From Cognaticolwellia mytili (GTDB taxonomy: Bacteria; Pseudomonadota; Gammaproteobacteria; Enterobacterales; Alteromonadaceae), in the NCBI RefSeq assembly GCF_002104475.1, contig NZ_NBOF01000007.1, forward strand, positions 1 through 64,000: a stretch of 64,000 nt of DNA. Reading direction: 5' to 3'. Made by a program: the position numbers and the translations under genes. This document shows positions 12,374 to 22,778 of the stretch, piece after piece (positions within the stretch are counted from its first letter, which is position 1; every line of letters begins with the position of its first letter). Under the pieces are notes generated by a model. That model was not told where the DNA came from and did not search any database. It saw only the letters and a list, made by a program, of their open reading frames with translations.

Positions 12374-12404
12374 AAAAAGGCCGGTGACGTTTAAATCACC
12401 AGCC
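12374..12404 (-). terminator. Attenuator between rplL and rpoB
   Basis: On the minus strand a 9-bp stem (GGCTGGTGA with TCACCGGCC, one G-T pair, 8-nt loop) is followed directly by five Ts. It lies 38-68 bases after the rplL stop. Placement matches the E. coli rplL-rpoB attenuator, which lets only part of the transcripts reach rpoBC. Partial rather than full termination is inferred from gene order. Confidence 0.75.
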
Positions 12405-12441
12405 ATTGCCTTTTCAGGCAAATAATCTATTTAAAAACAGA

Positions 12442-18788: not shown

Positions 18789-19322
18789 ATGATTAATTTA
18801 AAACGCTTCCATCATGTCGCTTATCGCTGTAAAGACGCGAAAGAAACCGTCGATTGGTACCAAAAACATTTAAACATGGAACTTACCGTTGCCATAGCAG
18901 AAAATGAAGTACCATCAACCAAGGCGCCAGATCCTTACATGCATATATTTCTTGATGCTGGCATGGGTAACGTATTAGCTTTCTTTGAAATACCAAACTC
19001 TCCTAATATGGGGCGCGATGAGAACACGCCACAATGGGTACAACATATCGCGTTAGAGGTTGAAGATGTTGACGCTTTAGTCGCAGCAAAAAAAGATCTA
19101 CAAGCGCAAAATATTGAAGTATTAGGACCCGTTAATCATGGCGTATTTAAATCAATATACTTCTTTGATCCTAATGGGCATCGCTTAGAATTGGCAACTA
19201 ATACAGGTACAACAGAACAGTACGCAGAACTGAAACGTGTGGCGCCTTTGATGGTTGAAGAATGGGCAAAAACGAAAAAAGCCCCCACTCACGCAGCGTG
19301 GTTACACCAACAAGAAGATTAA
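18789..19322 (+). CDS. VOC (glyoxalase/dioxygenase fold) family protein
   Basis: 177 aa from the ATG at 18789. The upstream in-frame ATG at 18744 would add 15 polar residues with no family look, so the later start MINLKRFHHVAYRCKDAKET is preferred, although neither has a strong ribosome binding site. Two beta-alpha-beta-beta-beta units are visible. Candidate metal ligands are His in FHHVAYRC, His in WVQHIALEVEDVD, and Glu in HRLELATN. The fold covers glyoxalases, extradiol dioxygenases and resistance proteins; the substrate cannot be told. The short C-terminal helix ending THAAWLHQQED is conserved-looking. A perfect 9-bp hairpin follows the stop. Confidence 0.85.
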   Translation: MINLKRFHHVAYRCKDAKETVDWYQKHLNMELTVAIAENEVPSTKAPDPYMHIFLDAGMGNVLAFFEIPNSPNMGRDENTPQWVQHIALEVEDVDALVAAKKDLQAQNIEVLGPVNHGVFKSIYFFDPNGHRLELATNTGTTEQYAELKRVAPLMVEEWAKTKKAPTHAAWLHQQED

Positions 19323-19384: not shown

Positions 19385-19552
19385 ACTATTAAATCACTAT
19401 TCGTAGAATTAGCCCGTTCAATATTCCATCTCATCCACTCAACATTCAACCAATAAAAATAAAATATTTGCTACAGCCCTTATTAACGAAGAGTTTCATA
19501 ATTTGGGTCTCTTCTAAAAACATAGCTCTTTGCCACTATCCTTGTAAGACAT

Positions 19553-19570
19553 TACCCACTAATAAGAGAA
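19553..19570 (+). promoter_or_regulatory. Possible UvrY/GacA box upstream of the Csr-type RNA
   Basis: TGTAAG at 19553-19558 matches the left half of the known TGTAAG-N6-CTTACA activator site exactly; the right half matches at three of six positions. It lies about 95 bp before the predicted start of the RNA, a usual distance for such upstream activating sites. Tentative. Confidence 0.35.
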
Positions 19571-19610
19571 AATTAAATTTAATTCACACTTATTTACAAA
19601 AATATTACAT

Positions 19611-19641
19611 TTGAAAACAAATGGTTAGCAACCATTATACT
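19611..19641 (+). promoter_or_regulatory. Candidate promoter of the Csr-type RNA
   Basis: TTGAAA (19611-19616) and TATACT (19636-19641) are spaced by 19 bp, longer than ideal, which would suit an activator-dependent promoter. Predicted transcription start is near 19648-19650. Confidence 0.45.
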
Positions 19642-19648
19642 TTAGTCT

Positions 19649-20043
19649 AATAAATACACTAAAAATACTACTTGCTGCTTTAAAAAACTTCAGTAAAGTA
19701 TAGGTCAGCTGCTAAGGCAGCATAACAACAAAATGGATATAAATTGCACGGAAAGCAAGCGCGATAGCGCCGAAATTAATTAAAATAATATGGATTATTC
19801 ACTAAAACTCGGGAAGAGTATTGAATATTTTGTCCAAATGGACATTATGGATAGCCAAAGAAAGTGTCAGGATGACCGAGAAAAATAAAATTGAACATGG
19901 AAGATATAATAATAAGATTGGAAACTGTCAAATTCGCAGGGACTGTGACAAAAGGTTAGGATAACCACTTAAGAATCTGAATTACATTGGTGGATAATGC
20001 CACATTCTTCTACAAAAGCGACGTTATTAACGTCGCTTTTTTT
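19649..20043 (+). ncRNA. csrC: CsrB/CsrC-type CsrA-sequestering small RNA
   Basis: About 395 nt with no credible ORF. Twelve GGA triplets occur between 19735 and 19994 (starts at 19735, 19750, 19792, 19812, 19840, 19849, 19870, 19899, 19920, 19940, 19959, 19992), most in ANGGA context. Several are exposed in short hairpin loops: GTCA-GGA-TGAC (19867-19875), GGTTA-GGA-TAACC (19954-19966), CATT-GGTGGAT-AATG (19985-19999) and TTGC-ACGGAAA-GCAA. This is the CsrA decoy architecture. It ends in a strong intrinsic terminator and lies directly upstream of yihI, as csrC does in E. coli. The csrC symbol rests on synteny; the 5' end is approximate. Confidence 0.85.
20018..20043 (+). terminator. Intrinsic terminator of the Csr-type RNA
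   Basis: An 8-bp perfect stem GCGACGTT/AACGTCGC with a 3-nt loop is extended by flanking A and T runs and followed by seven Ts. It ends 72 bp before yihI, so the RNA and yihI are separate transcripts unless there is read-through. Confidence 0.92.
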
Positions 20044-20115
20044 CTTTCTATCGCTGTTTAGCGTGTAATGTCGTAAAATAGTCCTAATTGTTCATTATTA
20101 TTTAAAGTTAATACT

Positions 20116-20706
20116 ATGTCTCGTTCTAAAAAATCACGTAAACCAGGTACAGGATCAATTGGCGCCGTTAAGGATGATCGAAAAAAAGCAGTTCTAGAAC
20201 CCGTTCCACGTAGAACAAAGAAAAAAAATGGTAAAGAAGCGGGTAACCGTCAAAAAGAAGCAACAGCCAGTATCACGAATGCACAAAACTCCGCAGCAAA
20301 AAAAGATCCACGTATTGGTAATAAAACACCAATAGATCTAGGCAAAGCAGCTACAGCGCCAATCAATTCAAAGCCAGTTAAAACAAAACAGCCTAAAAAA
20401 GCACAAGAAAGCTCTCCTATTGCCGCTATTCGCGTAGTAGAAGTTGCAGAGACATTAGCTGAGCAACTAAATAGTATTGAGCAAGATGAAAGATTGCTGG
20501 CAATACTAGAAAAACAAGACGCTGAAGAAACATTAACTTCGGAAGAAGTCGACTACTATAATGAGCTAATGGAAAAGCATGAAAAGATTAGTGAAGAAAT
20601 AGGCGAAGACGAAGAAGATGAAGTCATCATTACTAGTACCAGAGCAGACTCAGAAGATGACCTTTGGGACAAAATCGATAATAGTGATTTATCACGATTT
20701 GAGTAA
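20116..20706 (+). CDS. yihI: Der GTPase-activating protein YihI
   Basis: 196 aa, starts MSRSKKSRKPGTGSIGAVKD. In E. coli YihI stimulates the GTPase of Der (EngA) and so tunes 50S ribosome assembly. The first 110 residues are strongly basic and low in complexity; a conserved helical core (about 112-160, containing LAEQLNSIEQDERLLAILEK) and an acidic tail follow, the normal YihI layout. The order Csr RNA, yihI, hemN matches the E. coli region. It is 9 bp upstream of the DUF2489 gene, so the two are likely co-transcribed. Confidence 0.9.
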   Translation: MSRSKKSRKPGTGSIGAVKDDRKKAVLEPVPRRTKKKNGKEAGNRQKEATASITNAQNSAAKKDPRIGNKTPIDLGKAATAPINSKPVKTKQPKKAQESSPIAAIRVVEVAETLAEQLNSIEQDERLLAILEKQDAEETLTSEEVDYYNELMEKHEKISEEIGEDEEDEVIITSTRADSEDDLWDKIDNSDLSRFE

Positions 20707-20715
20707 GGATAAATC

Positions 20716-21216
20716 ATGCTTTCGACCCCCTGGGTTTACCTGGCGTTATTAGGCATTGTTATTATTGGCGTGCTCGCAGCAGTAGCGACAAAATTGTTAC
20801 GACAATTGAATCAGCAAAAACTGGCGCAAGCACAGGCTCAAGCAGCGCAAAAACAAGCGCATAAGCAGCATGACAAAAAGATAATATCGAGTGTTATTAT
20901 CATAGTACGTGCAATGAAGGAAGAACAATGTGACCTTGCAGAAGGTTGTTGGCGTTTAAGTGTATTGCTTGATTCTTTAAAGCTCAGCCAAGATTTACAG
21001 CTACAATTTCCTGCGGTATTTCAACTCTATGAGGCAATTAAGCATATGCCTATTTTAGCAGCACGAAAGGAGTTAGATAAAAAGTCGCGTATGAAATTAG
21101 ACTACGATCGTATGAAGCTTGAAGCCTCTTTGGCCGAAGATATTCAACGTGACATTGAATTATTGCATCAATACGCAAATGAACAAGCAACTGTATTAAG
21201 TAATGAAGCCGTGTAA
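20716..21216 (+). CDS. DUF2489 domain-containing membrane-anchored protein
   Basis: 166 aa with one N-terminal hydrophobic segment (about 7-28), a Gln/Ala-rich coiled-coil linker (33-55) and a conserved helical domain (RAMKEEQCDLAEGCWRLSVL onward). This matches the DUF2489 family, commonly found between yihI and hemN in Vibrio and Alteromonadales. Function is unknown. It is predicted to be anchored in the inner membrane with its bulk in the cytoplasm. It follows yihI by 9 bp; hemN starts 191 bp later, probably from its own promoter. Confidence 0.82.
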   Translation: MLSTPWVYLALLGIVIIGVLAAVATKLLRQLNQQKLAQAQAQAAQKQAHKQHDKKIISSVIIIVRAMKEEQCDLAEGCWRLSVLLDSLKLSQDLQLQFPAVFQLYEAIKHMPILAARKELDKKSRMKLDYDRMKLEASLAEDIQRDIELLHQYANEQATVLSNEAV

Positions 21217-21407: not shown

Positions 21408-22778
21408 ATGCAAGCAACTCAATTTTTCGATAACGCACTTTTAAAAAAATATAACACTAGTGGCCCAAGATATACCTCATACCCAACGGCACTAGAATTT
21501 CATGATCAATTCAAACATGACCATTTAGTGCAAGCCATAGAAGCATCACCTAATCGTGAGTTGTCTTTATATGTGCATATCCCGTTTTGTCATAGTCTTT
21601 GCTATTACTGTGGTTGTAATAAAGTTATCACACGTCATCGTGACAAAGCTGATACTTACCTTGAGTTTCTTGCTGAAGAAATTGCTTCAAGAGCACCGTT
21701 ATTCAAAGATTACACGGTAAAACAACTACACTGGGGTGGCGGTACGCCGAGCTTTTTACGACATGAACAAATTACGAAACTTGTTGAACTATTAAAAGCA
21801 AAGTTCACTTTTGCAAAGCAAGTAGAAATGAGTATTGAGATAGATCCTCGTGAAATAGAAATGGATCTAGCTGAGCATTTATATGATTTAGGCTTTAATC
21901 GTTTAAGTATTGGCGTACAAGACATTGATGAAAAAGTTCAGCAAACCATTAACCGGGTGCAATCAACCGAATTTATTGAAAACTTTATTGCGCATGCAAA
22001 AGACGTTGGTTTTAAGTCAATCAATATCGATTTAATTTACGGCTTACCCCATCAAACCATTGATACCTTTACTCGCACCTTGAATAAAGCTCATGAAATG
22101 GACGTTGACCGTATTTCATTGTTTAGCTACGCGCACATACCAGCACGCTTTGCTGCACAACGTAAGCTGCGAGATGAATGGCTACCCAGTGTTGATGAGA
22201 AGTTTGCTTTAATGAAATTAGCCATCGAAACACTTTGCAATTTTGGTTACGATTTTATTGGTATGGACCACTTTGCTAAACCTGAAGATGAACTATCAAT
22301 CGCACAAAAAGATGGCAGTTTACATAGAAACTTCCAAGGTTATACCACTAAGGGAGGCTGCGATTTGCTCGGTTTAGGGGTTTCATCAATTAGTGCCATT
22401 GGCAACAGTTTTAGTCAAAATACTAAAGAATTACAAGATTACTACAAGGCTATAGATACTCAAGCCCACGCTCAAATAAAAGGAGTTAGTCTCTCGACTA
22501 ATGATATTGTTCGTGGCGAAGTTATCCGCGAATTAATGTGCAATTTATACTTAGACAAAAATAAAATTAATGCCAAGTTTAACATTGATTTCGATGAGTA
22601 CTTTGCTGATGACCTACCTTTATTAGACACCTTTATTAATGATGGACTTGTATCTAATACCAGCGAAGCTATTAAAGTAGAACAAAAAGCTCGTTTGCTT
22701 ATTCGCAATATATGTATGAGCTTCGATGCCTATATGAAGCAGCATGTGAACAAGCAACGTTTCTCACGCGTAATATAA
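21408..22778 (+). CDS. hemN: Oxygen-independent coproporphyrinogen III oxidase
   Basis: 456 aa radical-SAM enzyme that decarboxylates two propionates of coproporphyrinogen III to form protoporphyrinogen IX without oxygen, a cytoplasmic step of haem synthesis. The iron-sulfur motif C61-x3-C65-x2-C68-x-C70 lies in HIPFCHSLCYYCGCNK and matches true HemN rather than HemW. The glycine-rich GGGTPSFL motif and the C-terminal HemN domain are present. The upstream region has TTGATCAA at 21345-21352, only a half-match to an FNR box. The stop is one base from the stop of the convergent DUF1285 gene. Confidence 0.96.
   Translation: MQATQFFDNALLKKYNTSGPRYTSYPTALEFHDQFKHDHLVQAIEASPNRELSLYVHIPFCHSLCYYCGCNKVITRHRDKADTYLEFLAEEIASRAPLFKDYTVKQLHWGGGTPSFLRHEQITKLVELLKAKFTFAKQVEMSIEIDPREIEMDLAEHLYDLGFNRLSIGVQDIDEKVQQTINRVQSTEFIENFIAHAKDVGFKSINIDLIYGLPHQTIDTFTRTLNKAHEMDVDRISLFSYAHIPARFAAQRKLRDEWLPSVDEKFALMKLAIETLCNFGYDFIGMDHFAKPEDELSIAQKDGSLHRNFQGYTTKGGCDLLGLGVSSISAIGNSFSQNTKELQDYYKAIDTQAHAQIKGVSLSTNDIVRGEVIRELMCNLYLDKNKINAKFNIDFDEYFADDLPLLDTFINDGLVSNTSEAIKVEQKARLLIRNICMSFDAYMKQHVNKQRFSRVI

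Follow-up and report, generated by a model that had tools for sequence, protein, structure and literature searches.

A predicted csrC-type regulatory RNA upstream of yihI in Cognaticolwellia mytili

The window analyzed here, i.e., the whole 64,000-nucleotide stretch of Cognaticolwellia mytili DNA, contains an interval between 19323 and 20115 that lacks any open reading frame of at least 60 amino acids (among ORFs of at least 20 amino acids overlapping 19560-20100, the longest has 48), in agreement with the earlier note, which had called the stretch 19649-20043 gene-free. The gene upstream, VOC-like by reading of its ORF, ends at 19322. Downstream, on the plus strand, lie yihI (20116-20706; tblastn with E. 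coli YihI, 37%, E 1.5e-12, locus L132), an extra ORF (20716-21216) and hemN (21408-22778, plus strand), the last of which was named by our own reading of the ORF, with support from relatives; HemN of this locus is 95% identical to that of an uncultured Colwellia and 92% identical to that of Cognaticolwellia aestuarii, which puts the window close to these two genera. The gene order of E. coli K-12 is spf, yihA (engB), csrC, yihI, hemN. If the RNA described below is named csrC, the order in the window reads csrC, yihI, extra ORF, hemN, which corresponds to the csrC locus on its yihI-hemN side, with the RNA on the same strand as yihI. Within the window engB is not the upstream neighbour; engB-like and cytochrome-c-like ORFs, again named by reading, are found upstream in the relatives L188 and L194. 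In the loci with a clear match, the RNA stands upstream of yihI.

The interval carries a putative promoter at 19672-19700 on the plus strand (-35 TTGCTG, 16-nt spacer, -10 TAAAGT), with GTAAAGTA at 19693-19700, and the E. coli csrC promoter has the same form (TTGTTTGTTTAAAGCAAAGGCGTAAAGTA). As GTAAAGTA is followed in E. coli by six bases and then by the annotated first base of the RNA, the start is placed by analogy at about 19707, uncertain by a few bases, and the end is placed in the T run of an intrinsic terminator (20014-20044, plus strand, stem 20014-20040), a strong terminator already recognized in the earlier note. The csrC-type RNA predicted from start to T run (19707-20044, plus strand) thus measures about 338 nt and has conserved promoter and terminator sequences. 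A start at 19649 and a length of about 395 nt, as initially proposed, had to be abandoned, since the conserved promoter (19672-19699) lies inside that interval. Farther upstream, a UvrY/GacA-binding-like element, TGTAAGACATTACCCACT, is located at 19543-19560 (plus strand), its center being at about -155 from the predicted start. Its motif TGTRAGACATT occurs exactly in 23 of the 29 promoter-bearing sequences described below, 127-140 bases upstream of the -10 region, and is missing from six. The right half of the window copy departs from published sites, and only its left half matches the symmetric TGTAAGN6CTTACA box. The available passages of the work of Zere and colleagues (PMC4682653) report TGTGAGACATTGCCGATA for E. 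coli csrC and TGTGAGACATTGACCATT for Salmonella csrC as UvrY sites; TGTAAGACATTGACCATT, found in 8 of the 29 relatives, is one base off the latter. The symmetric box itself, with up to three mismatches, occurs 37 times in the window (41.9 expected by chance) and is not enriched, and the csrC-type element was therefore used in its place.

Between 19735 and 19994 on the plus strand, exactly 260 bases, there are 12 GGA triplets, seven of them in ANGGA context, which bears out both the count and the majority of ANGGA previously claimed; the minus strand of 19649-20043 has a single GGA. This run is the GGA density maximum on either strand of the 64-kb window, the best scanned frame holding 11 GGA against a plus-strand mean of 1.4, with a runner-up of 9 on the minus strand near 2121. 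That second densest run, at approximately 2121-2380 on the minus strand with 9 GGA per 260-base frame, is recorded here as a separate observation. Dinucleotide shuffling (2000 shuffles each) of the 395-base region gives at least 12 GGA in 0.35% and at least 7 ANGGA in 0.55% of cases and reaches the AGGA-or-ANGGA count in 4.9%; for the 260-base core the corresponding frequencies are 0.7% (GGA), 4.5% (ANGGA) and 12.5% (AGGA-or-ANGGA). The number of GGA by itself, moderately unlikely by shuffling, is suggestive, a pointer and not a proof, and the case for an RNA therefore rests on conservation.

To describe conservation, 30 loci and the window were aligned, and the 29 of 31 sequences in which the promoter regular expression matches constitute alignment A1; the two failures, L078 and L083, were excluded, although both are GGA-rich. 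Rows L035, L037, L039 and L040, seemingly misplaced in the 5′ hairpin, were counted unchanged. Nine helices (as grouped by the tool) with 44 pairs named by hand were counted on A1. Paired cells amount to 88.2% of 1244, compared with 79.6% in shuffled alignments; two-sided changes are seen in 24 of the 44 pairs (shuffled mean 15.5) and in 115 cells (shuffled 38.7). Slid versions of the helices reach at most 42.3%, 16 pairs and 40 cells, respectively, a comparison tilted towards the named helices, since the window and L082 had served to choose them. For further pair types, the excess over shuffles is slight (56 vs. 51.1, a count attained in 25 of 500). Two-sided changes are found in the hairpins starting at 19708, 19807, 19832, 19937, 19954 and 19990 and in the terminator (five of eight counted pairs, 97.8% of cells paired), while hairpins 19744 and 19866 barely vary or merely break and thus carry little information. 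Folding of 19665-20046 is more favourable than that of shuffles (z = -2.47), with 4 of 100 shuffles equalling it. RNAalifold yielded little when applied to the full alignment, and model R1, built from its structure, was replaced by model R2, built from the hand-named hairpins.

The hairpins, all on the plus strand, differ in how they hold GGA. The 5′ hairpin GCTGC-TAAG-GCAGC (19708-19721) has none and shows two-sided changes in two of five pairs, with 86.2% of cells paired. In TTGC-ACGGAAA-GCAA (19744-19758), GGA 19750 is in the loop and recurs at most four columns away in 29/29 sequences; 86.4% of cells are paired and there are no two-sided changes. ACTC-GGGAA-GAGT (19807-19819) presents GGA 19812 in its loop, kept in the same column in 27/29, and all four of its pairs have two-sided changes. 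The same is true of all four pairs of GTCC-AAAT-GGAC (19832-19843), where GGA 19840 belongs to the stem and occupies the same column in only 7/29. The hairpin described earlier as GTCA-GGA-TGAC does exist, at 19866-19876 instead of 19867-19875; it is better written GTC-AGGAT-GAC, as the outer three pairs form in 29/29 and are nearly invariant and the innermost A-T forms in 14/29, with GGA 19870 in the loop (27/29). CAG-GGA-CTG (19937-19945; loop GGA 19940, in 26/29) has two-sided changes in two of three pairs and 79.1% of cells paired. GGTTA-GGA-TAACC was correctly located at 19954-19966; GGA 19959 in its loop is kept in 27/29 and two of its five pairs change on both sides, the third pair being CG in 12, UA in 9 and GC in 3 sequences. 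Finally, GTGG-ATAATG-CCAC (19990-20003), upstream of the terminator, changes on both sides in five of seven pairs (columns set from the relative L082) and has GGA 19992 in its stem, in the same column in 2/29. The earlier view of GGA as hairpin loops is thus correct for five of the 12 GGA of this run, which lie in loops of named hairpins, and incorrect for two, which lie in stems, five others being outside named helices; these calls refer to the named hairpins, from which the single-sequence minimum-energy fold differs in places. With a tolerance of four columns, 22 or more of the 29 sequences retain each of nine GGA, 21 retain GGA 19920, 10 retain 19840 and 3 retain 19992, so that the poorly kept ones are the two within named stems. 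Mean column identity in A1 is 0.885 at the GGA columns and 0.734 at the remaining columns occupied by the window sequence.

The search with Rfam covariance models that had been proposed as a check did not find the RNA: no Csr family reaches the gathering level in the window, CsrC (RF00084, cut-off 61 bits) scoring 9.9 bits on the terminator alone, and the RsmY and RsmZ models have no match in the window at E up to 5. With a permissive threshold, the better-scoring matches in the window RNA also fall on the terminator. The Rfam CsrC model gives E. coli csrC 278.7 bits and misses three Pantoea loci bearing 14-15 GGA upstream of yihI. Elsewhere in the window, Rfam P26 (RF00630) matches the minus strand at 12378-12433 with 40.5 bits (gathering 36).

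Searching 60 genomes with 19640-20046 as query gave matches in 19, namely in 17/17 of the genus (own genome included), 2/19 of other genera of the family and 0/24 of other families; G016 matched only across query positions 207-405. Among 118 genomes sampled from the family, 82 have a match to model R2 at E ≤ 0.01 (the E-values being rough) and 36 have no such match. Twenty of 83 R2 matches, chiefly weak ones, were inspected, and yihI was found downstream by tblastn in 16 of these; L194 has a yihI-like ORF, and in L188, with 11 GGA, yihI is found neither by tblastn nor among the ORFs, yet the engB-side neighbours are present. The match in L204 (approximately 1240-1690, 13 GGA) is preceded by a UvrY-like TTTGTAAGACATCGTCCATT and adjoins a lyase-like ORF away from yihI; it may be a relocated csrC or a second Csr RNA. 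The match in L203 resembles the terminator alone, and some R2 matches have fewer GGA, as in L185 with four in the stretch counted.

A signature limited to the promoter and the operator (TACTTTAC-N125-155-AATGTCTYAC) was searched in 295 genomes of the order and matched 12, vs. 2 matches for a control read backwards. In all 12 loci the 420 bases that follow contain 11-17 GGA, and tblastn finds yihI within the 3.1-kb locus; in the third family (three loci), yihI does not adjoin the RNA and starts about 750 bases beyond it. Recall is low: the signature misses 283 of the 295 genomes, and within the own family it misses 20 of 24. Three families are represented among the 12 genomes (four of the own family, five and three), and Rfam CsrC reaches gathering in 3/5, 0/3 (third family) and 0/4 (own family) of these loci. 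R2 recognizes 3 of 12 csrC loci of other families, all from the third family (E 7.9e-7, 0.001 and 0.0047), and has no match to E. coli, to Pantoea or to the five signature loci of the Rfam-like family. Thus, similarity in the RNA body fades and the control region is retained, and csrC can be identified by its locus, operator and promoter in cases that Rfam misses. Note also that L138 and L140 combine the csrC signature with a Spot 42 match, yihI and 11 GGA, with Rfam CsrC below gathering.

Other readings of this interval have been weighed. A conserved structured small RNA of another kind, for instance an Hfq-dependent base-pairing RNA in which GGA would be incidental to purine-rich stretches, could explain why the 3′ end resembles STnc240 (sub-threshold, 31.7 bits; gathering 55) and why the terminator carries a T run, since Hfq-bound RNAs also have a terminator with such a run. 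However, five GGA lie in loops of conserved hairpins, several of which covary, the GGA columns are better kept than others, and the promoter, the operator-like element and the genomic position all match those of csrC, so this explanation is very improbable. We consider even less probable that the sequence acts in cis as a 5′ leader of yihI and gives no free RNA: it does precede yihI in the same orientation, in the window as in its aligned relatives, but the conserved intrinsic terminator, with its 97.8% of paired cells, stands before yihI, and GGA-rich matches exist without yihI (L188) or beside other genes (L204). Least credible is GGA-rich intergenic DNA arising by chance, which the 4.5 and 12.5% of core shuffles reaching the ANGGA and AGGA-or-ANGGA counts would allow, whereas sequence, GGA positions and base pairing are conserved across 29 sequences, and covariation contradicts it.

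The window thus very probably encodes a small RNA of csrC type, about 338 nt long, that would act as a sponge of CsrA under the control of BarA-UvrY. Membership in the CsrB/CsrC family, as put forward in the earlier note, draws support from the covarying GGA-loop hairpins (five of the 12 GGA in conserved loops), the UvrY-type element, the promoter, the position at yihI-hemN and the presence of csrA, uvrY and barA, and narrowing this assignment to csrC, the likely counterpart of enterobacterial csrC, is well supported. The CsrA gene was found in 40/40 genomes searched, the own genome included, and the latter also has UvrY (400 bits, cut-off 280) and BarA (1160 bits, cut-off 890). From these sequence features and from established knowledge of Csr systems, we infer transcription, UvrY binding and the binding and titration of CsrA as follows. 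The sensor BarA would drive the phosphorylation of UvrY (GacA), and phosphorylated UvrY would bind the element near -155 and activate the promoter at 19672-19699; the transcript would end near 20044, at the terminator. Several CsrA dimers would bind to its GGA sites (five in the named loops and five outside named helices), which would withdraw CsrA from mRNAs, so that CsrA-controlled genes would change state. A putative sponge RNA of the global regulator CsrA is thereby placed in this marine bacterial group. The RNA is new as an annotated member within the reach of our searches, and its kind is ordinary. Csr RNAs were reportedly predicted widely by Kulkarni and others in 2006; the literature on this group that we searched names no csrC at yihI, and an earlier prediction in Colwellia may exist. 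Colwellia psychrerythraea 34H was included in a comparison of small RNAs, the available passages of which contain no csr result for this strain (PMC5471319).

The RNA is not found throughout the Colwellia-like bacteria. Of 64 yihI loci, 63 are valid (L041 has no sequence upstream of yihI), and in 26 of these the 560 bases before yihI contain 7 or more GGA, with 5 or more ANGGA; these 26 comprise 23 Colwellia-like or Thalassotalea-like loci and three from Pantoea. The remaining 37 (with only 367 bases upstream in L059 and a short match farther upstream in L019) are mostly records titled Colwellia, including C. psychrerythraea, and we refer to this Colwellia-titled group without the RNA at yihI as strict Colwellia. 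An 85-amino-acid ORF fills the csrC space beside yihI in L055 (2351-2608). R2 at E 0.01 matched 0/16 strict Colwellia genomes and 2/2 control genomes; three of the 16 have matches at E 0.06-0.7, in sites with at most 6 GGA per 300 bases. Loss of csrC in strict Colwellia is therefore likely, and a diverged or moved RNA may exist instead. Loss of the GGA-loop hairpins in close relatives, previously singled out as telling against the RNA, is not seen among the 29 aligned sequences, whereas farther out, in strict Colwellia, the RNA as a whole is missing from the locus, which offers a natural test of its replacement. No convincing candidate for a second Csr RNA was found in the own genome, where the next best R2 matches have E 0.5 (the terminator read backwards) and 1.35, GGA counts do not exceed 9 per 300 bases around 11 of 30 further UvrY-element-like sites, and the surroundings of syd, the neighbour of csrB in E. 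coli, have at most 5; a diverged copy could escape these searches. Tentatively, an ancestral csrC locus, defined by operator, promoter and place and not by the sequence of the RNA, might predate the divergence of the Colwellia-like, Enterobacteriaceae-like and third families; csrC might then be the sole Csr RNA in the genus, and strict Colwellia might have dropped it and restrain CsrA by another RNA or by other means, a scenario that we regard as possible and rather doubtful.

Among known systems, RsmY and RsmZ of Pseudomonas are sponges of RsmA that carry GGA in hairpin loops and are controlled by GacA; they differ from the window RNA in that their Rfam models do not match it, as stated above. 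The csrB, csrC and csrD RNAs of Vibrio resemble it as GGA-type, CsrA-sequestering RNAs present in several copies and traced by synteny, but yihI and hemN are not named in the available passages on their loci (PMC6262261). According to the passages available on Shewanella oneidensis, CsrB1 and CsrB2 are likewise BarA/UvrY-dependent and GGA-rich with a UvrY box upstream, but are located between SO_1615 and SO_1617, measure 420-421 bp and have the box TGTAAGN6CTTACA (PMC3171408). A further case is the marine relative Pseudoalteromonas fuliginea, with the GGA-rich intergenic RNAs Pf1, Pf2 and Pf3, which have promoters and terminators and are likened to the window RNA by description only; Pf2 and Pf3 shift with CsrA and are reported to increase glycogen, Pf3 is reported to have a partial match (>60% identity, 20-30% coverage) in Thalassotalea sp. 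LPB0316, and the passages available report no significant matches of Pf1 and Pf2 outside Pseudoalteromonas (PMC11882849, PMC9927453). One of these, Pf3 above all, may correspond to the csrC of the window. E. coli CsrC (RF00084) differs from the window RNA in length (246 nt vs. about 338), in an Rfam model that is blind to the latter and in its upstream neighbour, engB there and another gene in the window. Both RNAs immediately precede yihI-hemN and share its strand (the gap is 65 bases in E. coli and 71 here), and both are rich in GGA (14 and 12). They also share a UvrY-type element (from -168 in E. coli), the GTAAAGTA promoter and an intrinsic terminator, and the CTCAGGATGAG hairpin of E. coli CsrC recurs in relatives of the window such as L031.
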